Assembly: GCF_014695915.1 (NCBI RefSeq)
Contig: NZ_JACJPF010000107.1
Location: 1 to 64,000 of the forward strand
Length of the DNA stretch: 64,000 nucleotides
Origin: Trichocoleus sp. FACHB-40
GTDB lineage: Bacteria; Cyanobacteriota; Cyanobacteriia; Cyanobacteriales; FACHB-T130
Direction of reading: 5' to 3'
Position numbers and translations under genes: made by a program. Within the stretch, counting starts at the first letter, position 1; every line of letters begins with the position of its first letter. Of the stretch, positions 52,256-62,101 are shown in pieces. Under the pieces are notes generated by a model. That model did not search any database and was not told where the DNA came from. It saw nothing but the letters and a program-made list of their open reading frames with translations.

Positions 52256-52957
52256 TTAGCAAGCGCCTTTCTTATCCAAAACTGCCATTACAGTCTTGAA
52301 AATTAGGCTGATGTCGTAGATAACCGACCACTTGCGTTGGTAGTCGATGTCCATACGAACGATTTCTTCAAAGTCTTCCACAGTAGAACGACCGTTAGCT
52401 TGCCATTCGCCAGTGATTCCCGGCTTAACATTCAACCGTTCCCAGTGATGACCGTCGTAGTTCTTAACTTCATTGACTGTGGGTGGACGGGTTCCCACCA
52501 GACTCATATCCCCCATCAGAACATTCCAAAACTGAGGAAATTCGTCTAAGCTAGTGCGGCGCATAAATCTTCCCACGCGGGTAATGCGAGGGTCATTTTC
52601 ATTTTTAAAGATATGCCCTTTTGCCTGGTTCTTCACCAGATGCTGAAGCTTTTCTGCGCCAACAACCATAGAACGAAATTTCCAGATGCGGAATTGGCGA
52701 CCGTGCAGACCGCAACGAATCTGGCTGTAAAATACTGGGCCGGGGTTATCGAGTTGCATAGCGATCGCTACTGGAATTGCGATCGCAGCCGTAATCCCTA
52801 AACCTACAATGCCTCCTAAAATATCAATTAGGCGCTTCGCTTTGCTAGTAACCGATGGATGATGTTCGGCTTGTTTTTCACAATCAACTAAGTAGAGTTC
52901 ATCCATTTCTGGCGAAGCAACTTTTTTGGATTCCCGGAAGCGATAAGTAGTAATCAC
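52256..52957 (-). CDS. Bacterial sugar transferase (undecaprenyl-phosphate glycosyl-1-phosphate transferase type)
   Basis: The protein has 233 aa. One membrane helix (about 45-70, GIVGLGITAAIAIPVAIAM) is followed by the catalytic domain with GPVFYSQIRCGLHGR, IWKFRSM, SLDEFPQFWNVLMGDM and LVGTRPP. It lacks the extra N-terminal membrane region of WcaJ/WbaP, so it is the short PglC-like form. It starts exopolysaccharide or glycan assembly by loading the first sugar onto the lipid carrier. No other polysaccharide gene is next to it. Confidence 0.88.
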   Translation of the reverse strand: MITTYRFRESKKVASPEMDELYLVDCEKQAEHHPSVTSKAKRLIDILGGIVGLGITAAIAIPVAIAMQLDNPGPVFYSQIRCGLHGRQFRIWKFRSMVVGAEKLQHLVKNQAKGHIFKNENDPRITRVGRFMRRTSLDEFPQFWNVLMGDMSLVGTRPPTVNEVKNYDGHHWERLNVKPGITGEWQANGRSTVEDFEEIVRMDIDYQRKWSVIYDISLIFKTVMAVLDKKGAC

Positions 52958-53360: not shown

Positions 53361-56300
53361 CTAAATTATTGCCAGTTCTAACAAATTGACCGCTAGTGGG
53401 TCGTCCAGTTTTTGCTGAGTACCAGCCAGGACGCTACTTAAATAACGCCGCCAAGCCTCGCTTTGCTGTCCATTCATGCGATAAAGCTGCGTCGCCTCTT
53501 TCTCGAAAAGAGGTGCGGAAGCGATCGCCTGATAATCAGGATTTTGTGCCGAGGCGGGAGTTAGTAAACCCGAAGCGGTTTGTGACGGCACCAGACCAGC
53601 AGGCATCTGACCGTCCAAAAGTGCTATCACGCGAGAAAAGCAAACCCGTGTATTAATACCGCGATACTCTAGTATCTGCAAAATTTCCTCAACTGGAAGC
53701 GGTTGGGAGGGCAGTGCGCGTAAAAGTTCCAAAAGCAGAAAATAGTCGCTGTACTGCTGCGTTTGTTGTTCCAACAGTTGGGGATATAACGGTAAAGTAG
53801 CCAAACCGTAGGCAACCGGACTACAGCTTCGGGTTGCTTGTTCGCCTGACCAGACACGAAATGTCGTATCTGTGTCCCGAATCAAGATGGCTTTTGGTAA
53901 TTTTTGACGCAGCCATTGGGCGATTTCACCGATGGCAGCAGTTCCGCCAGTACAGATGATTTGCTTAATCCCTGATTCGCGTATTCCTGTCTGAATTAGC
54001 AGGGAATTTAGCTTCTGATTGAGTTGTTCAATAAACGGTTTGAACACCCGGTTTTCTAGGGCTTGGCGCGTCACCACGCAGGAATGTTCGCCCAGTTCCA
54101 GGGTATAGCTATCTTGGTGTTGAAGAATCCGTTTTAGATAACTAGCGGCTTCTAGGAGTTTTTGTCCTAGAGGGGAACTTTGCAACAGCGATGATAAGCG
54201 ATCGCGTGTCGCCAAATCCGGTTCACCCGCCTTAGGAAAGATGAGGGATGAAGAATGAAGAATAAATGAAGATTCTAATTTATCTTTTATTTTGCTGCCT
54301 TCATCCTGCAAAAGCAATTGACAGATAATGTCTTGGTCAATGGCATTACCCGCATAGGCAAAACTTTGGCAAGCAAAGTCGGAATGAGTTAAATCTTCCC
54401 GATTTTCCGGTAAATTTACCAAAGCGAGTTCTGTTGTGGTGGCACCAGCATTGATTGCTAAAGTGGGGCCTCGCCAGGGTACTTCTGGGAGTGTCGCACC
54501 TTCAATTCCTGCCAACACAGTAGCGATCGCATCCTCAAGAAAGAAAATTTGCTCTGGATGCCCCACCAGCTTCGCCTCCAGCAAGGCTTCCCGAATATTA
54601 AAGCGGTAGGTATCCCCCCACTGGGCAGGGCAACCCACAATCGCACCGCTTAAGCGGCTCATCGCTGCATTCAGCGTAGATGGCTTTAGACCAGCAGCAC
54701 CTACTAAATATGAAGGAGCTTGTTCTGAGGAAGATAGAGGGCTTTCCTCGCCTTGTAGGGGTGTCAGAGTAGCTAATAAAGCTTTCAACGAGCGCCCAAT
54801 CCAGCACAAAGAAATTGGCTGGTCAAGCGACCACTGCAACATTGGCTCCCAGTTTTTCCCGGAGACAGAATAGTAAGGAATGCCAACTTTCAAGTATGGC
54901 TTAAAGTTTTGGATGAATATCCCTTCTTTACTATTGGCAACCGATGTTGGAGCAACAGCGATCGCTGCTACTGATGATCCCGGAATATTCCCCTCTGGCC
55001 CTATGTAGGTTACAGATGGTAAACGAAAGCTGGTTTCGTTTGACTCTGGCTGTTGGGATTTCATCCAATAGATAGGATATCTTTCGCCAGTGGAGCAATT
55101 TAACAAAACTGCGGAAACACCAGTTGTCCCAAAGTCAATTCCTAAATACCAGGTATAGTTGCTGACATCTTCCGAGGCGGCTTTTTTTAAAGGATGAAGG
55201 ATTAAGGATGAAGGACTTTTAAGATCAAATCCGGTTAATTGTCCATCATTAAAACCCTTTACCCCGAACCCCTCTGCGTCTGTCCCCACTGGAGGCGGAG
55301 GCACACTATCTGGCAAAGTGAGGTTCTTCAGAAATGCTGGTTCAGCAAGCGGTGATATCAAAGGAACCGGGTTGAAGGACGAAGGATGAATAAAGTTTTC
55401 GGTAAAAATCTGAGATTCAAATATCGCTTCCACCGAAAAATCTGTTTCATCCTCCCTGCTTACGGCTTCCTCATTCGGAGTCACTATTTGTTTTTTTTTT
55501 TCCGAATCTGACGATGGGGGTATATCTAGATTCAAATCGTCGGACGTTAGAGTTGCCTCATTATCAAAAGCTTCGTTAAAGGCTTCGTCAAAGGATTCTT
55601 CTTGGGATGCGATCGCATCCTCTGGTGCGATCAGTTCCTCCAAGCGTAACAATTCCAACTCCCAATCCATATCATCTGATTGTGTTGTTTCTCCCCCATC
55701 GCTTTCTGGCGTTTCTTCCCAATCCCAGGAGGCTAAGTATTCATCATCAGAATCAGAAGGAATGGCGTTTTCTGTTTCCACCCGACTTAATTCTTCTAAA
55801 GATAATTCCACCGCTTCATCCCACCCATTGAATGTTTGCTGGCTGGAATTTGATTCAGGTGTTTCTGACAACTCCCAAGAAGCTAAGTATTCATCATCAG
55901 AAGCGATCGCGTTTTCTGTTTCCACCCGACTCAATTCTTTTAAAGATAATTCCACCGCTTCATCCCACTCATCGAATGTTTGCTGGCTGGAATTTGATTC
56001 CGGTGTTTCTGACAACTCCCAAGCAGCGATCGCATTTTCTGGTACTGCTGTCTGTTCTTCCTCCGCTGTTAATTCCTTAGCTGGAGGAAGCAGACCAATC
56101 ACCGTGTCTGGAGGTGGATAGAGCGGTTCCCAGGTGTATAATGACGCATCCCATTCAGACACAGATGGTTCTGTTTTCTCCGGCTGTTTAGGGGAATCTT
56201 CTTGGTGTAACGCTTCACTTTGAGACTGCGCCTGCTCATTTGGCACACCAGCAGACACATTCTCTGGAAAACTATCCAAGTTTAGATCGTCCCAATCCTC

Positions 56301-58559
56301 CATCAACACTTCATCCAGTGCTGTGTCTGCCACAGTTTCTTCAAATAAGTGAATTTCTTGATTTTCACTCCTGTGGATTTCGTCTAGTGCCAGTTCCTCT
56401 TGAGTAAAAGGCTGCTGCGCCATCAATTCCCCGGTTAACTCGGTTCCAAAAATCTCCTCTTGTTTAAGGAAATCGCTATCAGGTGCCTCTAATCTATACA
56501 GATTTTCACCTATCTGCTGAGCTGTCTCCAGAATTTCTGTTTGTTGCTCTCGGCGGCTAGTAGGTGTCTCGAAGCTAAAAAGGTCTTCACTCAGCAGTTG
56601 CAAAGTCTCTTGATCCAGCCAAAATTCTTCTGCTTGGCTACCAGAAGCATCTACTGCCAGCAGATCCTCGTCTGGCGAAGCTGGAATATAGGTATCTTCT
56701 GGTGGAGACAGGCTAGGTGTCTCTGTTTCTATTGCTTGCTGAGGTATGGTTGGCTCTATTTTCTGAATTTGAGTTATTTCTTGAACGGTAGTTTCTATAG
56801 CAGAACTCAGGGATTCATCTGTCAGCGCCTCCGGAAATAAATCAGCTAGCGACGAGATGACCAGATCCCCTGGTTCAACATCGCTATTGGCGGCTAAATT
56901 TGTTTCGGCGGCAAAGATTTCTTCACCCAAACGGCTAGCAATTTTGGAGGGTTGCTCTTGCTCATCTGCCGCGATGGGTGCGATCGCTTCTGTGTCTATC
57001 TGAAAAACGGTTGCTTCCCAATCTTCCGGAAACAAAGCATTTTCCCAAGGTCTTGTCTGTGGCTGTACAAATGTCGGCTCATCCGACGAATCTATCAGTC
57101 CGGCAAACAAAGCATCCTCTAAAGACTGTGTTGTAGGTTCTGTAATAGATTCGGGGGATTTTTCTGTTGCTCCTAGTCTCCCCCTCTCTCCTTCTTCCTG
57201 AGCCGTATGTTGTGACTTTTCCACCCCAGTCTCACTCAGCGGTTCCGCACCAAACAAACTATTAAAAAAAACGTCTAGTTCGTCTTCCCGTGTTTCAGGA
57301 GGCACGGGAATTACAGCATTCAGCTGTAGGAGGGTTGTCATATCATCGTCATCCAGACTATCCAGATTTAGAGCGGATATATCCATCTCCATCAGTCCTT
57401 CATCACTGTCGGCTGCTGCGGATGGCGATCGCTCCTGTCCCTGTACAACCCATGTGCTAATAGTCGGATTCCCCTCCGGACTTGGCTCCTCTACCAGTTC
57501 CACCGATCTAGCTGGCAGTTCAATACCTGGATACGGTAATTGTGTGGGAGGGTTGTCAGCATTAGGCGAGAAGCTTCTGTAATTTTGTGAAGGCGAGAAC
57601 GGAGCAATATTTGCCTCTCTCCAAGGTGCCTGGGTTGCAGATTGCCTGGGTTCCAGGTTGCCTGGGTTTTGCGGCCTTGTAGTCGCGTCTGGGGGTGACT
57701 GCAATTCAGAAATCCGCCTAGAGGAGGATTGCATTATGGTAGAGGCTTCTTGCTGTAACTGCTCACTCAGCTGATTTACCAACTCGGTAAACCTGACCTC
57801 ACTCTGCTGCCCCAAATTGTGAATCTTCTCCAGTCCTTGGAACAAAGACTCTTGATAGCTGTGAATATTGCGCTGTAGCGTCTCGAAGACGGAACAAATA
57901 GTAGAATCCAGCGTTATCAACAGTTGATCGGATCGCGCCTGTAGCATTTGCAGTTGTTCCAGGCGCTCACGAGGGTGTAGCGGTGCTGGATTGTTTATCT
58001 GGCTGCGGTCGTAGGCTGGGCCAGAGGCGGATGGTGGCGTTTGTTGGGATGTATACGCCAAATTCATAAATTGGGCTTCTAGATTCGTCAGGCTTTGAGC
58101 CATCTGTTGCGTCAGGGTTTCCTGCAAGCGACCAGAAAGCGCCTGCAAAAATTCGGAAATCATTTGCTGCTGGGATGCCTGTTGCTGGGTAAGAGTTCGA
58201 TAGTGCAGCCGGGAACTCTCCATCTGCCGAATTTCTGAAATTAGCGACTCCCGTTGTTGGCGCAGCCGCTCCATTTCCGCCTGTAAAGGCCCAATTAAGC
58301 CGGAGCGCAACGAGTGCATCTCTTTCTCAACCGCTTGCACAATTTGTCGCCCCGTTTCCTGCGATCGCTGGAGGTGCTGCTCTTCAACTACAGCATTGGA
58401 TTGCTGTTGTGCGGCTAAATAATTACGAACTTGCTCCAAAAGCCGCCGCTGCTCTTGGACATCGACCGATCTGAGCCAAGGACGACGGGAGCTGGCCTTT
58501 TGGAGGATGCTGTCAATGTCAGCGATGATTGTTGAAATTGAATCTGTTTCGTGAGTCAC
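53361..58559 (-). CDS. Giant coiled-coil protein with C-terminal Hsp70/actin-like ATPase domain
   Basis: The protein has about 1730 aa from GTG 58559 (after GGCGGGGGT); a TTG at 58649 would add 30 unlikely residues. Residues 1-310 are a coiled-coil region (DIDSILQKASSRRPWLRSVD, many Gln/Leu/Glu heptads). Residues about 310-1120 are acidic and disordered, with two to three repeats of about 48 aa (SETPESNSSQQTF, WDEAVELSLxELSRVETENAI). From about 1138 an Hsp70-like nucleotide-binding domain begins (YLGIDFGTTGVSAVLLN), with AINAGATTTELALV as phosphate 2 and ICTGGTAAIGE as the adenosine motif. No substrate-binding domain is evident. Several Ser/Leu-rich inserts (SSLILHP, SSFILHSSSLIF) look repeat-derived. 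A structural or cell-shape role is only a guess. Confidence 0.8.
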   Translation of the reverse strand: MTHETDSISTIIADIDSILQKASSRRPWLRSVDVQEQRRLLEQVRNYLAAQQQSNAVVEEQHLQRSQETGRQIVQAVEKEMHSLRSGLIGPLQAEMERLRQQRESLISEIRQMESSRLHYRTLTQQQASQQQMISEFLQALSGRLQETLTQQMAQSLTNLEAQFMNLAYTSQQTPPSASGPAYDRSQINNPAPLHPRERLEQLQMLQARSDQLLITLDSTICSVFETLQRNIHSYQESLFQGLEKIHNLGQQSEVRFTELVNQLSEQLQQEASTIMQSSSRRISELQSPPDATTRPQNPGNLEPRQSATQAPWREANIAPFSPSQNYRSFSPNADNPPTQLPYPGIELPARSVELVEEPSPEGNPTISTWVVQGQERSPSAAADSDEGLMEMDISALNLDSLDDDDMTTLLQLNAVIPVPPETREDELDVFFNSLFGAEPLSETGVEKSQHTAQEEGERGRLGATEKSPESITEPTTQSLEDALFAGLIDSSDEPTFVQPQTRPWENALFPEDWEATVFQIDTEAIAPIAADEQEQPSKIASRLGEEIFAAETNLAANSDVEPGDLVISSLADLFPEALTDESLSSAIETTVQEITQIQKIEPTIPQQAIETETPSLSPPEDTYIPASPDEDLLAVDASGSQAEEFWLDQETLQLLSEDLFSFETPTSRREQQTEILETAQQIGENLYRLEAPDSDFLKQEEIFGTELTGELMAQQPFTQEELALDEIHRSENQEIHLFEETVADTALDEVLMEDWDDLNLDSFPENVSAGVPNEQAQSQSEALHQEDSPKQPEKTEPSVSEWDASLYTWEPLYPPPDTVIGLLPPAKELTAEEEQTAVPENAIAAWELSETPESNSSQQTFDEWDEAVELSLKELSRVETENAIASDDEYLASWELSETPESNSSQQTFNGWDEAVELSLEELSRVETENAIPSDSDDEYLASWDWEETPESDGGETTQSDDMDWELELLRLEELIAPEDAIASQEESFDEAFNEAFDNEATLTSDDLNLDIPPSSDSEKKKQIVTPNEEAVSREDETDFSVEAIFESQIFTENFIHPSSFNPVPLISPLAEPAFLKNLTLPDSVPPPPVGTDAEGFGVKGFNDGQLTGFDLKSPSSLILHPLKKAASEDVSNYTWYLGIDFGTTGVSAVLLNCSTGERYPIYWMKSQQPESNETSFRLPSVTYIGPEGNIPGSSVAAIAVAPTSVANSKEGIFIQNFKPYLKVGIPYYSVSGKNWEPMLQWSLDQPISLCWIGRSLKALLATLTPLQGEESPLSSSEQAPSYLVGAAGLKPSTLNAAMSRLSGAIVGCPAQWGDTYRFNIREALLEAKLVGHPEQIFFLEDAIATVLAGIEGATLPEVPWRGPTLAINAGATTTELALVNLPENREDLTHSDFACQSFAYAGNAIDQDIICQLLLQDEGSKIKDKLESSFILHSSSLIFPKAGEPDLATRDRLSSLLQSSPLGQKLLEAASYLKRILQHQDSYTLELGEHSCVVTRQALENRVFKPFIEQLNQKLNSLLIQTGIRESGIKQIICTGGTAAIGEIAQWLRQKLPKAILIRDTDTTFRVWSGEQATRSCSPVAYGLATLPLYPQLLEQQTQQYSDYFLLLELLRALPSQPLPVEEILQILEYRGINTRVCFSRVIALLDGQMPAGLVPSQTASGLLTPASAQNPDYQAIASAPLFEKEATQLYRMNGQQSEAWRRYLSSVLAGTQQKLDDPLAVNLLELAII

Positions 58560-59096
58560 AAGGGAACCCCCGCCTAGAACGATTGCCCAGTTATCAAAAG
58601 CTACTATACTGCTACTGGCTATAATGTTAGACTGCGTGAGCGACAACAACTAAATTTCACAGGGTTCTACATCTACCGGGTGAAGTATTTCAAAACGGGT
58701 AATTATAAATGTAGATATATTCAGGAGCGATCGCCCTCAAGTGCCGCCAACCGCGTAACAAGTACGCGATCGCCATAAAATAAAGCGTTTGGAGTAGAAT
58801 GTGAGTTTTGCTTTTGAACGATCGGCAACTGGTAGTGAGTTTACCGTAGAGAGGATAATAACGGTAGAGTCATTTCTAAATAGGTGCCTCTTGCCTGGGA
58901 ATGGATTGGCACCTTCGTGCCTCTTGTCCAGCAAAATTGTCTTCGAGTGGGGCAACGCCACCTGCTGTACTATTCTGGCAGTATTGCTGAAAAGTCCAGC
59001 TCTTATTATTGCTCTGCGTTAAAACGCTACCAGCTAGCCCCGATGAAGTGGGCCACTAATTATCCGTTTAAAAGCGTTTACTTTTGCGATGGCCCG
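58560..59096. other. Divergent intergenic region (giant gene / Crp-family regulator)
   Basis: Frames on both strands are open for parts of this stretch but have no ribosome site or family similarity. HIP1 sites occur near 58729 and 58767. It probably holds both promoters and the leader of the regulator gene. Confidence 0.4.
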
Positions 59097-59804
59097 ATGG
59101 AAGACAGATACAACTCCCGCGAATCAAATTCTAATCTCAATTCGTTGATTGTCTCCGCTCCTTTGTTTACTGGCTTACCAGACATTGTTGTGCAGAAGGC
59201 AACGTCTCATGTCGTTACTCGTACTCATCCAGCAAATCAGGTGATTTTGCTGGAAAACGACTGGGGCGGCTCAGTATATTTTATTTTGGAGGGTTGGGCG
59301 AAAATTCGTACCTACAACCTCGATGGCAAAGAAGTTACTCTCAACATTCTTGGGAAAGGAGAACTCTTTGGCGAAATGGCAGCACTCGATGAGGTGCCTC
59401 GTTCTACGGATGTGATCACATTAACTCCCACAACGATTGGCAGTATGCCCGCTGCTGATTTCGTTCAGTTAATTAATAATGAACCCCTAGCAGGCGTGCG
59501 GTTGGCTCAGCTGATGGCAAAACGTCTGCGTCAAGTTAACCGTCGTCTCCGGTTGCGAGAATCGGACAGTATGTCGCGTGTAGCCGATACGTTGTTATTT
59601 CTCGCGGAAGGGCAGGGAAAAACTGCACAAAAAGGAATTAATATCCCGAACTTGCCTCATCGCGAATTAAGTAGTCTCAGCGGACTGGCGCGGGAAACAG
59701 TGACGCGGGTACTGACAAAGTTGGAGAAAAAAGGGCTGATTATGCGCGATCACGATATTCTCTGTATTCCCGATATGGGAGCCTTGGAACGACTAATCGT
59801 CTAA
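59097..59804 (+). CDS. Crp/Fnr family transcription regulator (cAMP-receptor-like)
   Basis: The protein has 235 aa from ATG 59097 (MEDRYN); the frame is open upstream to 58884, and ATG 59043 is an alternative, but the upstream part looks non-coding. The cyclic-nucleotide domain has VYFILEGWAKIRTY and the phosphate-binding cassette FGEMAALDEVPRSTDV, where Glu and Arg-Ser match cAMP-binding residues. The C-terminal helix-turn-helix is LPHRELSSLSGLARETVTRV. It differs from NtcA, lacking the NtcA recognition helix SHQAIAEAIGSTRVTV. It resembles the AnCrp type by my memory; this needs a tree. Confidence 0.8.
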   Translation: MEDRYNSRESNSNLNSLIVSAPLFTGLPDIVVQKATSHVVTRTHPANQVILLENDWGGSVYFILEGWAKIRTYNLDGKEVTLNILGKGELFGEMAALDEVPRSTDVITLTPTTIGSMPAADFVQLINNEPLAGVRLAQLMAKRLRQVNRRLRLRESDSMSRVADTLLFLAEGQGKTAQKGINIPNLPHRELSSLSGLARETVTRVLTKLEKKGLIMRDHDILCIPDMGALERLIV

Positions 59805-59995: not shown

Positions 59996-60823
59996 ATGAG
60001 CGATCCTTTTAAAGACGGTGAAGGCGATCGCCCCAGCGATCTGGAAACGGAAAATCAGCCGACCGGACTGGCGAACGCAGCAAGAAAAAGTACCACTGGC
60101 CCTGAAAGCTTTAATCCACAATTGTCTGGAGACACGGATAGAAGCGACACAACAGGGACAACCAGCGCCCCACCAGACAATTTTTCTGAAGTTAAGGTGA
60201 GTGCGAAGTCTCCCCTGATATTGGTGGAAACTGCCTTTTTAGCTAGTACCTCTAGCTTGATTTGGCTGATTAATTATTACTTTCCCCTGGGGCCGCTGTT
60301 GCGAATGTTTTTCCCGGTGCCAATTGCTTTGGCATACTTGCGCTGGGGATACCGCGCTGCTTGGATGGCGGCGTTGGTTACTGGGTTGCTGTTGTCGGTG
60401 CTGATGGGGCCTACCCGCAGTATTCTCTTTGTTATCCCCTATGCTTTGATGGGTGTCCAGCTGGGGGCTATGTGGAGGCGCGGGAGTAACTGGCTGTTCT
60501 CGATTGGTATAGGTGGGATTATTGGCACGTTTGGATTCTTTTTTCGGTTTTGGCTGCTGTCAATTTTACTAGGCGAAGACCTCTGGGTTTACACGACAAG
60601 CCAGGTGACGGAATTGGCAGAGTGGATATTTGTCAAGCTAGGGTTGCTCGCCCAACCGAGTCTTTATGTGGTTCAAGCGATCGCATTCGGCATGGTCATC
60701 CTGAGCAATATCATTTATCTATTCGTGGTGCATCTGGTGGCTTTGGTGCTACTGGATCGCTTAGGCAACCCAATCCCCCGTCCGCCAAACTGGGTACAAG
60801 TTTTATTAGATTATGAGGAATAA
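59996..60823 (+). CDS. DUF2232 membrane protein
   Basis: The protein has 275 aa. A polar, probably disordered N-terminus of about 75 residues precedes six or so hydrophobic segments (ILVETAFLASTSSLIWLINY to LVALVLLDRLG). FFPVPIALAYLRWGYRAAW is a typical DUF2232 motif. The family includes transporter-like membrane proteins; the cyanobacterial role is not known. It is followed 3 bp later by cobT, suggesting co-transcription. Confidence 0.82.
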   Translation: MSDPFKDGEGDRPSDLETENQPTGLANAARKSTTGPESFNPQLSGDTDRSDTTGTTSAPPDNFSEVKVSAKSPLILVETAFLASTSSLIWLINYYFPLGPLLRMFFPVPIALAYLRWGYRAAWMAALVTGLLLSVLMGPTRSILFVIPYALMGVQLGAMWRRGSNWLFSIGIGGIIGTFGFFFRFWLLSILLGEDLWVYTTSQVTELAEWIFVKLGLLAQPSLYVVQAIAFGMVILSNIIYLFVVHLVALVLLDRLGNPIPRPPNWVQVLLDYEE

Positions 60824-60826
60824 AGG

Positions 60827-62101
60827 ATGATGGGAGAAGAAAGACAAGGGACTGGGGACTGGGGACAAGGTACTGGGGAAGAGATACAAGGGAGATTTCC
60901 CAATCCCCAATCCCCAATCCCCAATCCCCAATCCTCAATCCCCAATCCCCAATCTCCAATCCCCATTAACGTCTACACTCAACACGAACAGGGACACCGC
61001 TGGCTCCAGCGATATCGAGGACAGCCAGCGGTGTTTGCTTGTATTTTAGGATTTACTGACACCGCCTTGATCCCCGGCATTTCTGCGGCTGGTGCAACGC
61101 CAGAAGATCGGCGATACACTGCGATCGCAGATGCTGAATTTTTGTATAACGGCCCTCGCCAACAGCCTCAATACCCTCTACCTCCCCTGCAAGCGGGAGC
61201 TTCACCAGTGCTAATCTCTCGCGCTGCAATCGAGGGTCTGAATATTCCAGTTTATTTATTTAATGCAGGTTTGCCCCAGCCGCCGAGTGTCCCAACAATT
61301 GATTTAGGGGGCTTTCCCGCCCGGTGTCTCAGTCAAGGAAATGCCCTGGAACTAACAACGGTCAAACATCTGCTCCAGCAGGGGCTTAGGTGGGGAGAAA
61401 AGCTGGCGGCAAATATTCCCAATGGGTATTTAATTCTGGGCGAGTGCGTGGTGGGGGGAACCACAACGGCTTTGGCTGTTTTAACTGGCTTGGGTTTCCC
61501 GGCTGTTGGTAAAGTCAACAGCAGCCACCCCAGTTGCAATCATTCTCAAAAGTGGGCTGTGGTGCAAGCTGGGCTACAAGCGGCGAGGATTGGGGAATGG
61601 GAAGACAAAAAAGTTGCTGCCTTCTCTTCCCCACTCCCCAGTCCCGGCGAAGCAATTGACCCTTTGCAGCTGGTGGCGGCAATTGGAGATCCGATGCAAG
61701 TTGTGGCGGCGGGGATGGCGATCGCTGCTAGTCGTAGCTGCGGTGTTTTGCTTGCTGGTGGGACGCAAATGCTGGCTGTATATGCCTTGATGCAGGCAAT
61801 ATCACGTCAATGTAACCTGTCCTGGCAACCAGAACAAGTAGTGGTAGGAACAACCCGCTGGGTGGCAGAAGACTCTACGGGCGACACTATTGGATTAGCA
61901 AAAACTATCAACCCAGTTTCCCTAATGGCTACTGGGCTAAGTTTTGCGGCTTCTCGTTACCCTCAACTGAGGGCTTATGAGCAAGGATATGTCAAAGAAG
62001 GTATGGGTGCAGGGGGATGCGCGATCGCAGCTACACTAACCCAAGGCTGGCACCAAAAGCAATTACTCTATGCTATTGAAACGTTAATAGAACGTTGTTG
62101 A
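60827..62101 (+). CDS. cobT: Nicotinate-nucleotide-dimethylbenzimidazole phosphoribosyltransferase (CobT family)
   Basis: The protein has 424 aa from ATG 60827 after GGAATAAAGG. Conserved segments: FACILGFTDTALIPGISAAG, TPEDRRYTAIADAEFL, GECVVGGTTTALAVLTGLG and VNSSHPSCNHSQKW, then AGGTQMLAVYAL. This is the archaeal/cyanobacterial CobT subfamily used in cobamide lower-ligand activation. Residues about 5-46 are heptad-repeat-encoded ([22 protein letters not shown]), lying between the start codon and the first conserved strand INVYTQHEQGHRW. A second, shorter repeat-like insert is at about 260-275 (WEDKKVAAFSSPLPSPG). Confidence 0.85.
   Translation: MMGEERQGTGDWGQGTGEEIQGRFPNPQSPIPNPQSSIPNPQSPIPINVYTQHEQGHRWLQRYRGQPAVFACILGFTDTALIPGISAAGATPEDRRYTAIADAEFLYNGPRQQPQYPLPPLQAGASPVLISRAAIEGLNIPVYLFNAGLPQPPSVPTIDLGGFPARCLSQGNALELTTVKHLLQQGLRWGEKLAANIPNGYLILGECVVGGTTTALAVLTGLGFPAVGKVNSSHPSCNHSQKWAVVQAGLQAARIGEWEDKKVAAFSSPLPSPGEAIDPLQLVAAIGDPMQVVAAGMAIAASRSCGVLLAGGTQMLAVYALMQAISRQCNLSWQPEQVVVGTTRWVAEDSTGDTIGLAKTINPVSLMATGLSFAASRYPQLRAYEQGYVKEGMGAGGCAIAATLTQGWHQKQLLYAIETLIERC
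60842..60966. repeat. Heptad palindromic element inside cobT 5' end
   Basis: GGGACTG/GGGGACAAGG units are followed by an AGAGATACAAGGG spacer and CCCAATC/CCCCAAT units. Orientation is reversed relative to the arrays at 32752 and 53138: the C/T pattern of one arm here matches the complement of the other there. The element is translated in frame. Confidence 0.88.

Follow-up and report, generated by a model that had tools for sequence, protein, structure and literature searches.

Among the key proteins of bacterial multicellularity is SepJ, also called FraG (Alr2338 in Anabaena PCC 7120), which helps to hold the cells of a filament together. It has been described as a coil, a linker and a permease (PMC6282017, PMC6463045). 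The side on which the coil lies is disputed: it was considered extracellular, a view later challenged, and SepJ has no evident signal peptide yet binds peptidoglycan (PMC12096826, PMC6463045). A review of 2025 proposes that the coil threads through SepJ's own permease ring (PMC12096826). We analyzed here a stretch of 64,000 nucleotides from Trichocoleus sp. FACHB-40 (positions 1 to 64,000 of contig NZ_JACJPF010000107.1, hereafter the window), and in it a gene for a giant protein of 1732 amino acids (aa) that carries a coil homologous to that of SepJ and, further on, an Hsp70-like domain. The family of this protein joins two known parts. In the open-licence literature no title was found on a coil-Hsp70-like protein of this make-up, none of the matches listed treated SepJ and DnaK together, and in the matches on SepJ and Hsp70 that were examined, the Hsp70 passages concern other matters.

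The giant protein and SepJ have homologous coils, each followed by a variable Pro/Ser/Thr-rich linker, and their genome distributions nearly coincide. However, the C-terminal part of SepJ is a DMT/EamA permease (25 of the 25 proteins fetched), whereas the giant ends with the Hsp70-like half and has no EamA match; unlike SepJ, it also has an extra N-terminal part and no membrane-like stretch. With Hsp70/DnaK it shares the fold, the order of the motifs and the phosphate-1 Asp, the Lys and the Glu. It differs from them by its phosphate-2 motif, by the absence of a substrate-binding domain and by scores under the Pfam and NCBIfam cut-offs. The same genome also encodes an Hsp70-like protein of 537 aa (L004:790-2400) with an Hsp70-like domain as in the giant. 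Unlike the giant, this protein keeps DFGGGTLD at phosphate-2 and has no preceding coil; it matches the DnaK models far better, though still below their cut-offs.

Gene and Domain Order

The longest open frame of the gene begins with TTG and counts 1762 codons; from the GTG at position 58559, which is preceded by a GGGGG stretch, it gives 1732 aa. A GTG start codon stands in the same alignment column in 29 of 30 relatives and one column later in the thirtieth. The gene is real, and its parts follow in the order coiled coil, acidic linker, Hsp70-type nucleotide-binding domain and conserved C-terminal domain:

53361..58559 (-), whole gene, 1732 aa, GTG start (reading of the open reading frame, ORF; start codon common to relatives)
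58320..58559 (-), residues 1-80, N-terminal part common to the giant family (31-row alignment; the SepJ match starts near its end)
57705..58367 (-), residues ~65-285, coiled-coil domain homologous to the SepJ/FraG coil (hhalign, genome searches, shuffle control)
55173..57704 (-), residues 286-1129, acidic linker rich in Pro/Ser/Thr, variable in length (composition and relatives' lengths)
56565..56705 (-), residues 619-665, short conserved linker stretch, D-x-YIPASPxEDLL and then LxxxTLxxLSxDL (search of other loci)
55752..56027 (-), 144-bp in-frame tandem duplication, 1.9 copies, giving SETPESNSSQQTF units (repeat search)
53790..55157 (-), residues ~1135-1590, Hsp70-type nucleotide-binding domain (AlphaFold2 model, Foldseek, VIA)
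54450..54452 (-), codon of N1370, at the phosphate-2 aspartate place of Hsp70 (motif and strand order)
53400..53756 (-), residues ~1602-1720, conserved C-terminal domain of weak winged-helix-like topology (model, Foldseek, VIA)

A sequence-only reading of this gene had described a coiled N-terminus, a strongly acidic middle and an Hsp70-like domain at the C-terminus. All three are present, and the Hsp70-like domain does lie behind the coil and the acidic stretch, but not at the very end, as a conserved domain of about 120 residues follows it.

In Pfam and NCBIfam scans the giant gave sub-threshold matches only (PilM_2, HscA and DnaK), and its gene was not among the 7 matches of a Pfam HSP70 search of the window's own genome. 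When the C-terminal 579 residues were compared with the sequences of solved structures, just 2 matches at chance level were obtained (E 1.4). No membrane-like or hydrophobic stretch was seen in the giant (best 19-residue mean of 1.34; no signal-peptide program was used), and its SepJ-type coil is therefore expected in the cytoplasm.

Homology of the Coil with SepJ

Profile-profile comparison of the giant and SepJ coils (hhalign) gave 99.8%, an E value of 5.6e-28 and 30% identity over 189 columns, most SepJ rows aligning from profile position 71-86 of the giant family. On the giant profile, 25 real SepJ coils scored 54-108 bits, against at most 16.8 bits for 4000 shuffles that preserved the heptads. 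Within the match lies a specific segment around LDxTLxxxFxSLQxxxxSYQxxLSQxLxxMxxLxQQGE.

When a profile built from 31 giant coils (A4) was run against 386 cyanobacterial genomes, 87 matched, 72 of them at just two places; the reciprocal search with the SepJ coil matched 89 genomes, 70 of them with just two places, the best 5 (giant) or best 7 (SepJ) candidates per genome being scored and two places being possibly pieces of one gene. Twenty-five ORFs at the second place, picked by hand, were fetched. They measure 560-794 aa, hold the same coil and carry an EamA permease in 25 of 25 cases, the permease scan covering these 25 SepJ matches. In L074, L075 and L107 the SepJ ORF is followed immediately, and on the same strand, by an ORF with a HetR_C match (299-303 aa); alr2338 itself adjoins hetR. 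The combination of coil and EamA permease, the HetR_C-bearing ORF downstream and the published make-up of SepJ identify the second match as SepJ/FraG. HmpF had been suspected from the size of these ORFs and was discarded in favor of SepJ when the Pfam scan gave an EamA permease.

In an unrooted tree built from 65 coils, a branch with 100/100 support has the 25 SepJ rows on one side and sets them apart from the giants. We conclude that the giant and the septal protein SepJ/FraG have homologous coils; the coiled coil of the sequence-only reading is there, but it is kin to the SepJ coil and not a generic one. In the genome of the window, SepJ is encoded at L072:1860-3623(-), on a contig other than that of hetR. 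An IS4-type transposase gene (L072:480-1682) adjoins this sepJ.

An Hsp70-Like Domain with a Changed Phosphate-2 Motif

Structure models were made of residues 1130-1732 and, separately, of the C-terminal domain. The AlphaFold2 model of residues 1130-1732 had a mean predicted local distance difference test score (pLDDT) of 85.1 and a predicted template modeling score (pTM) of 0.89. Foldseek ranked DnaK and other Hsp70s at the top (best E 5.5e-14, to DnaK), all of the 50 rows shown being of Hsp70 type, and the VIA rows shown had Z scores between 21.0 and 23.5, over 333-382 residues. An Hsp70-type fold behind the coil and the acidic stretch, as proposed before, is thus supported by the predicted structure.

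The catalytic set of Hsp70 is taken here to be D8, K70, E171, D194 and D201 in Escherichia coli numbering. In an alignment (A1) of the window protein with 32 of the 34 other loci (33 rows; L060 and L069, with an incomplete domain, were left out), the phosphate-1 Asp and the E171-like Glu are kept in 33 of 33 rows and the K70-like Lys in 31. Where Hsp70 has the phosphate-2 Asp, 17 rows have N, 10 have S, 3 have H and one each has D, E and T, and the D201 place is Glu in 32 of the 33. The phosphate-2 motif, of the DLGGGTFD type in Hsp70, is replaced mostly by N/S-x-G-A-x-x-T-E. A weak local profile alignment with the genome's three own DnaKs (48%, E 1.8e-4) agrees on the phosphate-1 Asp, the Lys and the Glu; it left the phosphate-2 motif unaligned and was not retained as proof of the loss. 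The claim that the phosphate-2 Asp is lost therefore rests on the motif, on the predicted strand-turn-strand and on conservation.

With this Asp in 1 of 33 rows, true ATPase activity is doubtful. From these residues, the chaperone-like domain has probably lost the normal ATPase chemistry, and it would bind nucleotide with weak hydrolysis or none. The former label of ATPase thus agrees with the phosphate-1 Asp, the Lys and the Glu and fails at the usual phosphate-2 Asp; the ATP-binding residues are lost from the homologs in part, at one or two catalytic positions, the others being kept. At E 0.01, 5 of 33 members had a Pfam HSP70 match (best 2.1e-5). PilM_2 reached 16.8 and 18.5 bits on the window protein, for a cut-off of 27, and matched 8 of 33 members at E<=0.01.

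We take R167 and N170 of DnaK to be its contacts with J-domains. In the alignment with the DnaKs, the R167 place faces I or V in the giant family and the N170 place mostly V or L. That these contacts are not kept speaks against a normal J-protein partner.

C-Terminal Domain and Linker

No beta-sandwich substrate-binding domain was found after the nucleotide-binding domain, where the model has helices and one hairpin only. The earlier statement that the protein lacks a substrate-binding domain therefore holds, and another conserved domain sits in its place. Modeled alone, this C-terminal domain reached a mean pLDDT of 74.8 and a pTM of 0.66, with block means of 69-94 in its core (residues 21-130), and showed seven helices, some of them short, and one hairpin. 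Foldseek gave no match at 0.001 (best E 0.16). Of the 50 VIA rows shown, almost all were winged-helix-type DNA-binding proteins by title, at middling Z scores of 5.9-8.1, the best row (Z 8.1) having a root-mean-square deviation of 3.8 over 93 residues. With no Foldseek match at 0.001 and Z scores up to 8.1, a firm identification as a winged helix was dropped in favor of a winged-helix-like topology. Pfam found nothing in this domain of the window protein, and among the 33 rows only scattered weak matches. Since the net charge of the region ranges from -8 to +2 over the 33 rows, protein binding is favored over DNA binding as its putative role.

The linker is strongly acidic (net charge of -154 and 23% D+E over residues 301-1130) and is expected from its composition to be disordered. 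Acidic repeats had been reported in it and do exist; the SETPESNSSQQTF unit, however, is exact only twice (ETPESNSSQQTF at residues 851 and 899) and comes from the single 144-bp duplication, and a looser third unit, ETPESD, follows the exact pair at residue 949. We consider more telling than these units the short stretch at residues 619-665, which was matched in 24 of 34 other loci at E<=0.1 in a search run with the low-complexity filter and the composition correction off. The whole fused protein of L039 gave no match to this motif, and past about residue 679 the linker had no match at E 0.001.

Fused and Split Genes

The titles of the 34 named contigs with relatives of the Hsp70-like half are all cyanobacterial. 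Genera named among them include Nostoc, Cylindrospermum, Microseira, Symploca, Coleofasciculus, Leptolyngbya and Microcoleus, which are filamentous. The coil and the Hsp70-like half form one ORF in 16 of 35 loci and two same-strand ORFs in 15, 4 loci being unjudged. The gap between split genes is 10-408 bases in 13 of the 14 measured and 2034 bases in L058. Two of the split loci are doubtful: this gap of L058 holds an opposite-strand ORF, and in L042, beside a fused relative, the ORFs overlap in different frames, possibly through a frameshift.

In a tree labeled with 16 fused and 12 split rows (L042, L060 and L069 not among the split rows), at least three changes of state are needed, and two of them are forced by well-supported branches. 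The fused window protein groups with four split relatives (92/72; 95/92 with L038 added). Because the one-gene or two-gene state occurs in conserved order, it suggests that the coil and the Hsp70-like half act together. A frame split into separate genes is found in 15 of the 35 loci, among relatives and not in the window gene, and we read it as two modules that belong together and not as a refutation.

Distribution among Cyanobacteria

The profile of the Hsp70-like half matched 125 of the 386 genomes at E 0.001 and 76 at 300 bits or more. Many of the weaker matches are other Hsp70-like ORFs of about 520-570 aa; present in many genomes, these may be kin of the 537-aa protein of L004. With presence set at 300 bits or more for the Hsp70-like half, at about 120 bits outside the giant's own ORF for SepJ and at any match for HetR_C, the Hsp70-like half was present in 76 genomes, the SepJ coil in 77 and HetR_C in 80. 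The first two occurred together in 72 genomes and all three in 69; the co-occurrence with SepJ is near-complete. HetR is a mark of filamentous lineages. In one species of the genus g11, the Hsp70-like half has an internal TAA (G233:C1:3805793-3807754), and in the other species (G051) it has no match; SepJ and HetR matches are found in both genomes.

Neighboring Genes

Two neighbors recur beside the giant gene and its relatives:

58884..59804 (+), Crp/Fnr-type regulator, divergent, conserved neighbor (Pfam scan; same cluster in 28 of 35 loci)
52256..52957 (-), sugar transferase of exopolysaccharide type, downstream, frequent neighbor (Pfam/NCBIfam; same cluster in 12 of 35 loci)

The true start of the Crp/Fnr-type gene probably lies inside the ORF given. 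Other clusters are DUF2232 (21 of 35 loci), a CobT-type gene (15) and pgsA (7), many loci stopping at contig ends. Further recurrent neighbors are a transporter component, epimerases, SurE, PRC/DUF2382, a folate ligase and Usp, with two more that have no Pfam match. A Crp-type site (TGTGA-N6-TCACA) between the giant and the regulator was considered and rejected, the best counts in 23 stretches being equaled by at least 9 of 60 simple shuffles each. Short repeats lie at window positions 60711-60959 around the start of the CobT-type gene, whose listed N-terminus may be spurious.

Possible Function

Our best explanation, which we put forward tentatively and just short of calling it probable, is that the giant works in the cytoplasm with the septal (cell-cell junction) machinery of filamentous cyanobacteria, as a partner that responds to nucleotide. 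The evidence for the anatomy of the protein is strong and that for a septal role moderate and indirect. The strongest indirect point in favor of this role is the SepJ-type coil in a protein in which no membrane-like stretch is seen. The N-terminal coil would mix with or dock on SepJ, or on itself, at septa; the acidic linker would be a long flexible spacer carrying one conserved short docking motif; the Hsp70-like domain may bind nucleotide and change shape without efficient hydrolysis; and the C-terminal domain, in place of a substrate-binding domain, could contact a protein partner. The whole would then be a scaffold whose grip is set by its nucleotide state and which helps to place, build or gate septal complexes. 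The scaffold with a nucleotide switch suggested from the sequence alone remains plausible.

Several observations weigh against this explanation. The co-occurrence tracks the species tree, and the counts are uncorrected for common descent; the P values obtained for it disregard shared ancestry and carry no weight here. SepJ is present without a strong Hsp70-like half in G033, G045, G051, G197 and G229 (G033 has a divergent split form, L079), and the giant without SepJ at the cut-off in G111, G118, G123 and G213, where G118 has a partial match of 68.5 bits, and G111 and G123 lack any SepJ match and have a short form (L080, L110). Among the neighbors identified, none indicates a septal role. In addition, five genomes (G229, G197, G360, G185 and G289; L102 to L106) have a coil gene without an Hsp70 half in the stretch fetched:

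L102:2474-5215, lone coil gene
L103:3745-5775, lone coil gene
L104:5361-6659, lone coil gene
L105:3237-4451, lone coil gene
L106:3496-4785, lone coil gene

These genes sit between the Crp-type gene and the sugar transferase, and Hsp70-like matches in their genomes are weak or absent genome-wide. Since the coil gene is kept there without the Hsp70 half, the Hsp70-like switch looks dispensable in these cases. Finally, shortened forms stand beside the same Crp-type gene in genomes without HetR or a separate SepJ match:

L081:4165-5832, shortened form, 555 aa
L114:2039-3286, shortened form, 415 aa
L115:1436-2635, shortened form, 399 aa

In two of these forms the Hsp70-like part alone was found. 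The occurrence of shortened forms in such genomes indicates that the family is not only septal.

The conserved neighbors bear first on another explanation, in which the coil and the Hsp70-like switch form a scaffold for polarity or motility that cooperates with type IV pili and the polysaccharide of hormogonia, alongside the HmpF/DnaK1 network and under Crp-type control. The Crp-type neighbor and the exopolysaccharide-type sugar transferase fit this scheme. In Nostoc punctiforme, moreover, DnaK1 and DnaJ3 connect the secretion of polysaccharide with the pilus motors, and the placing of DnaK1 requires HmpF (PMC9239167). However, no pilus gene appears among the recurrent neighbors identified (some clusters having no Pfam name or being unscanned), and no Crp-type site is clearly enriched in the 23 intergenic stretches. 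We regard this role as unlikely, though it deserves consideration.

A self-assembling cytoskeletal filament, in which coil and actin-like fold polymerize and the link to SepJ is shared coil ancestry only, appears improbable. It would suit the combination of a coil with an actin-type fold and the weak PilM_2 matches of 8 of 33 members, but PilM_2 stays under its cut-off on the window protein, the 50 Foldseek rows shown are Hsp70-type, and the long acidic linker seems unlike known filament formers.

The altered catalytic site in an Hsp70 fold also recalls a chaperone helper of the Hsp110 sort, which binds ATP without needing its hydrolysis and, placed by the coil, would assist the DnaK system as an exchange factor or a holder. 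Hsp110 structures are indeed among the fold matches (6gfa at Z 21.6 in VIA; 2qxl in Foldseek), but Z hardly differs among the Hsp70-fold rows, so that such a match says little, and the giant has no substrate-binding domain and a C-terminal domain of other topology; we think this helper role quite improbable. That the SepJ match reflects a mere common coiled-coil pattern with no tie to septa was already disfavored and is very improbable: coiled coils do give false matches, the HMMER bias is about 2-49 bits for the SepJ rows and only 5 or 7 candidates from each genome were scored in the searches, but the shuffles stay far below the real SepJ coils and the match holds the specific stretch given above.

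A bolder form of the septal explanation brings in ZipN, a division protein reported with a DnaJ or J-like domain, whose two-hybrid signal with SepJ is very strong and which helps SepJ to its place at the septum (PMC6391411). This suggests that ZipN and the giant may be a J-Hsp70-like pair. The septal control module would then have been made from worn-down chaperone parts, with a SepJ-type coil on a pseudo-ATPase Hsp70 and with ZipN reading it through its J-like domain. For SepJ, the coil of the giant would serve as a hetero-oligomer module in the cytoplasm, the coil of SepJ itself would be partly or wholly cytoplasmic at least during assembly, and nucleotide binding by the Hsp70-like domain would release the coil or insert it through the SepJ permease ring. 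We hold this extended scheme for quite improbable as well, and the loss of the presumed J-domain contacts at R167 and N170 lowers the case for it further.

Significance for the Family

Among known septal proteins, FraI and SepT were considered as the Nostoc member of the giant family and set aside, as both are reported with predicted transmembrane segments, unlike the giant. SepI (Alr3364) has been modeled with SepJ, more than two copies of SepI being tried (PMC12096826). Given the size limit of the program, such a trial would be hard with a protein of 1200-1500 aa, which argues that SepI is shorter than the open frames of 1167-1511 aa of the f6 genomes. If SepI nevertheless were the Nostoc member, the family would already have a septal phenotype, and the novelty would be reduced to the Hsp70-like half and the homology with SepJ.

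For the septal partner that we tentatively favor, the finding would add an altered Hsp70 to a machinery in which ZipN, with its J-like domain, pairs with SepJ in two-hybrid assays (PMC6391411). The giant provides an independent, apparently soluble copy of the SepJ-type coil, and a candidate partner of SepJ in nearly the same genomes. It thereby makes testable whether the coil of SepJ can mix with a cytoplasmic coil. As SepJ is central to the cohesion of the filament, the giant may offer a new handle on how cyanobacteria build their filaments.

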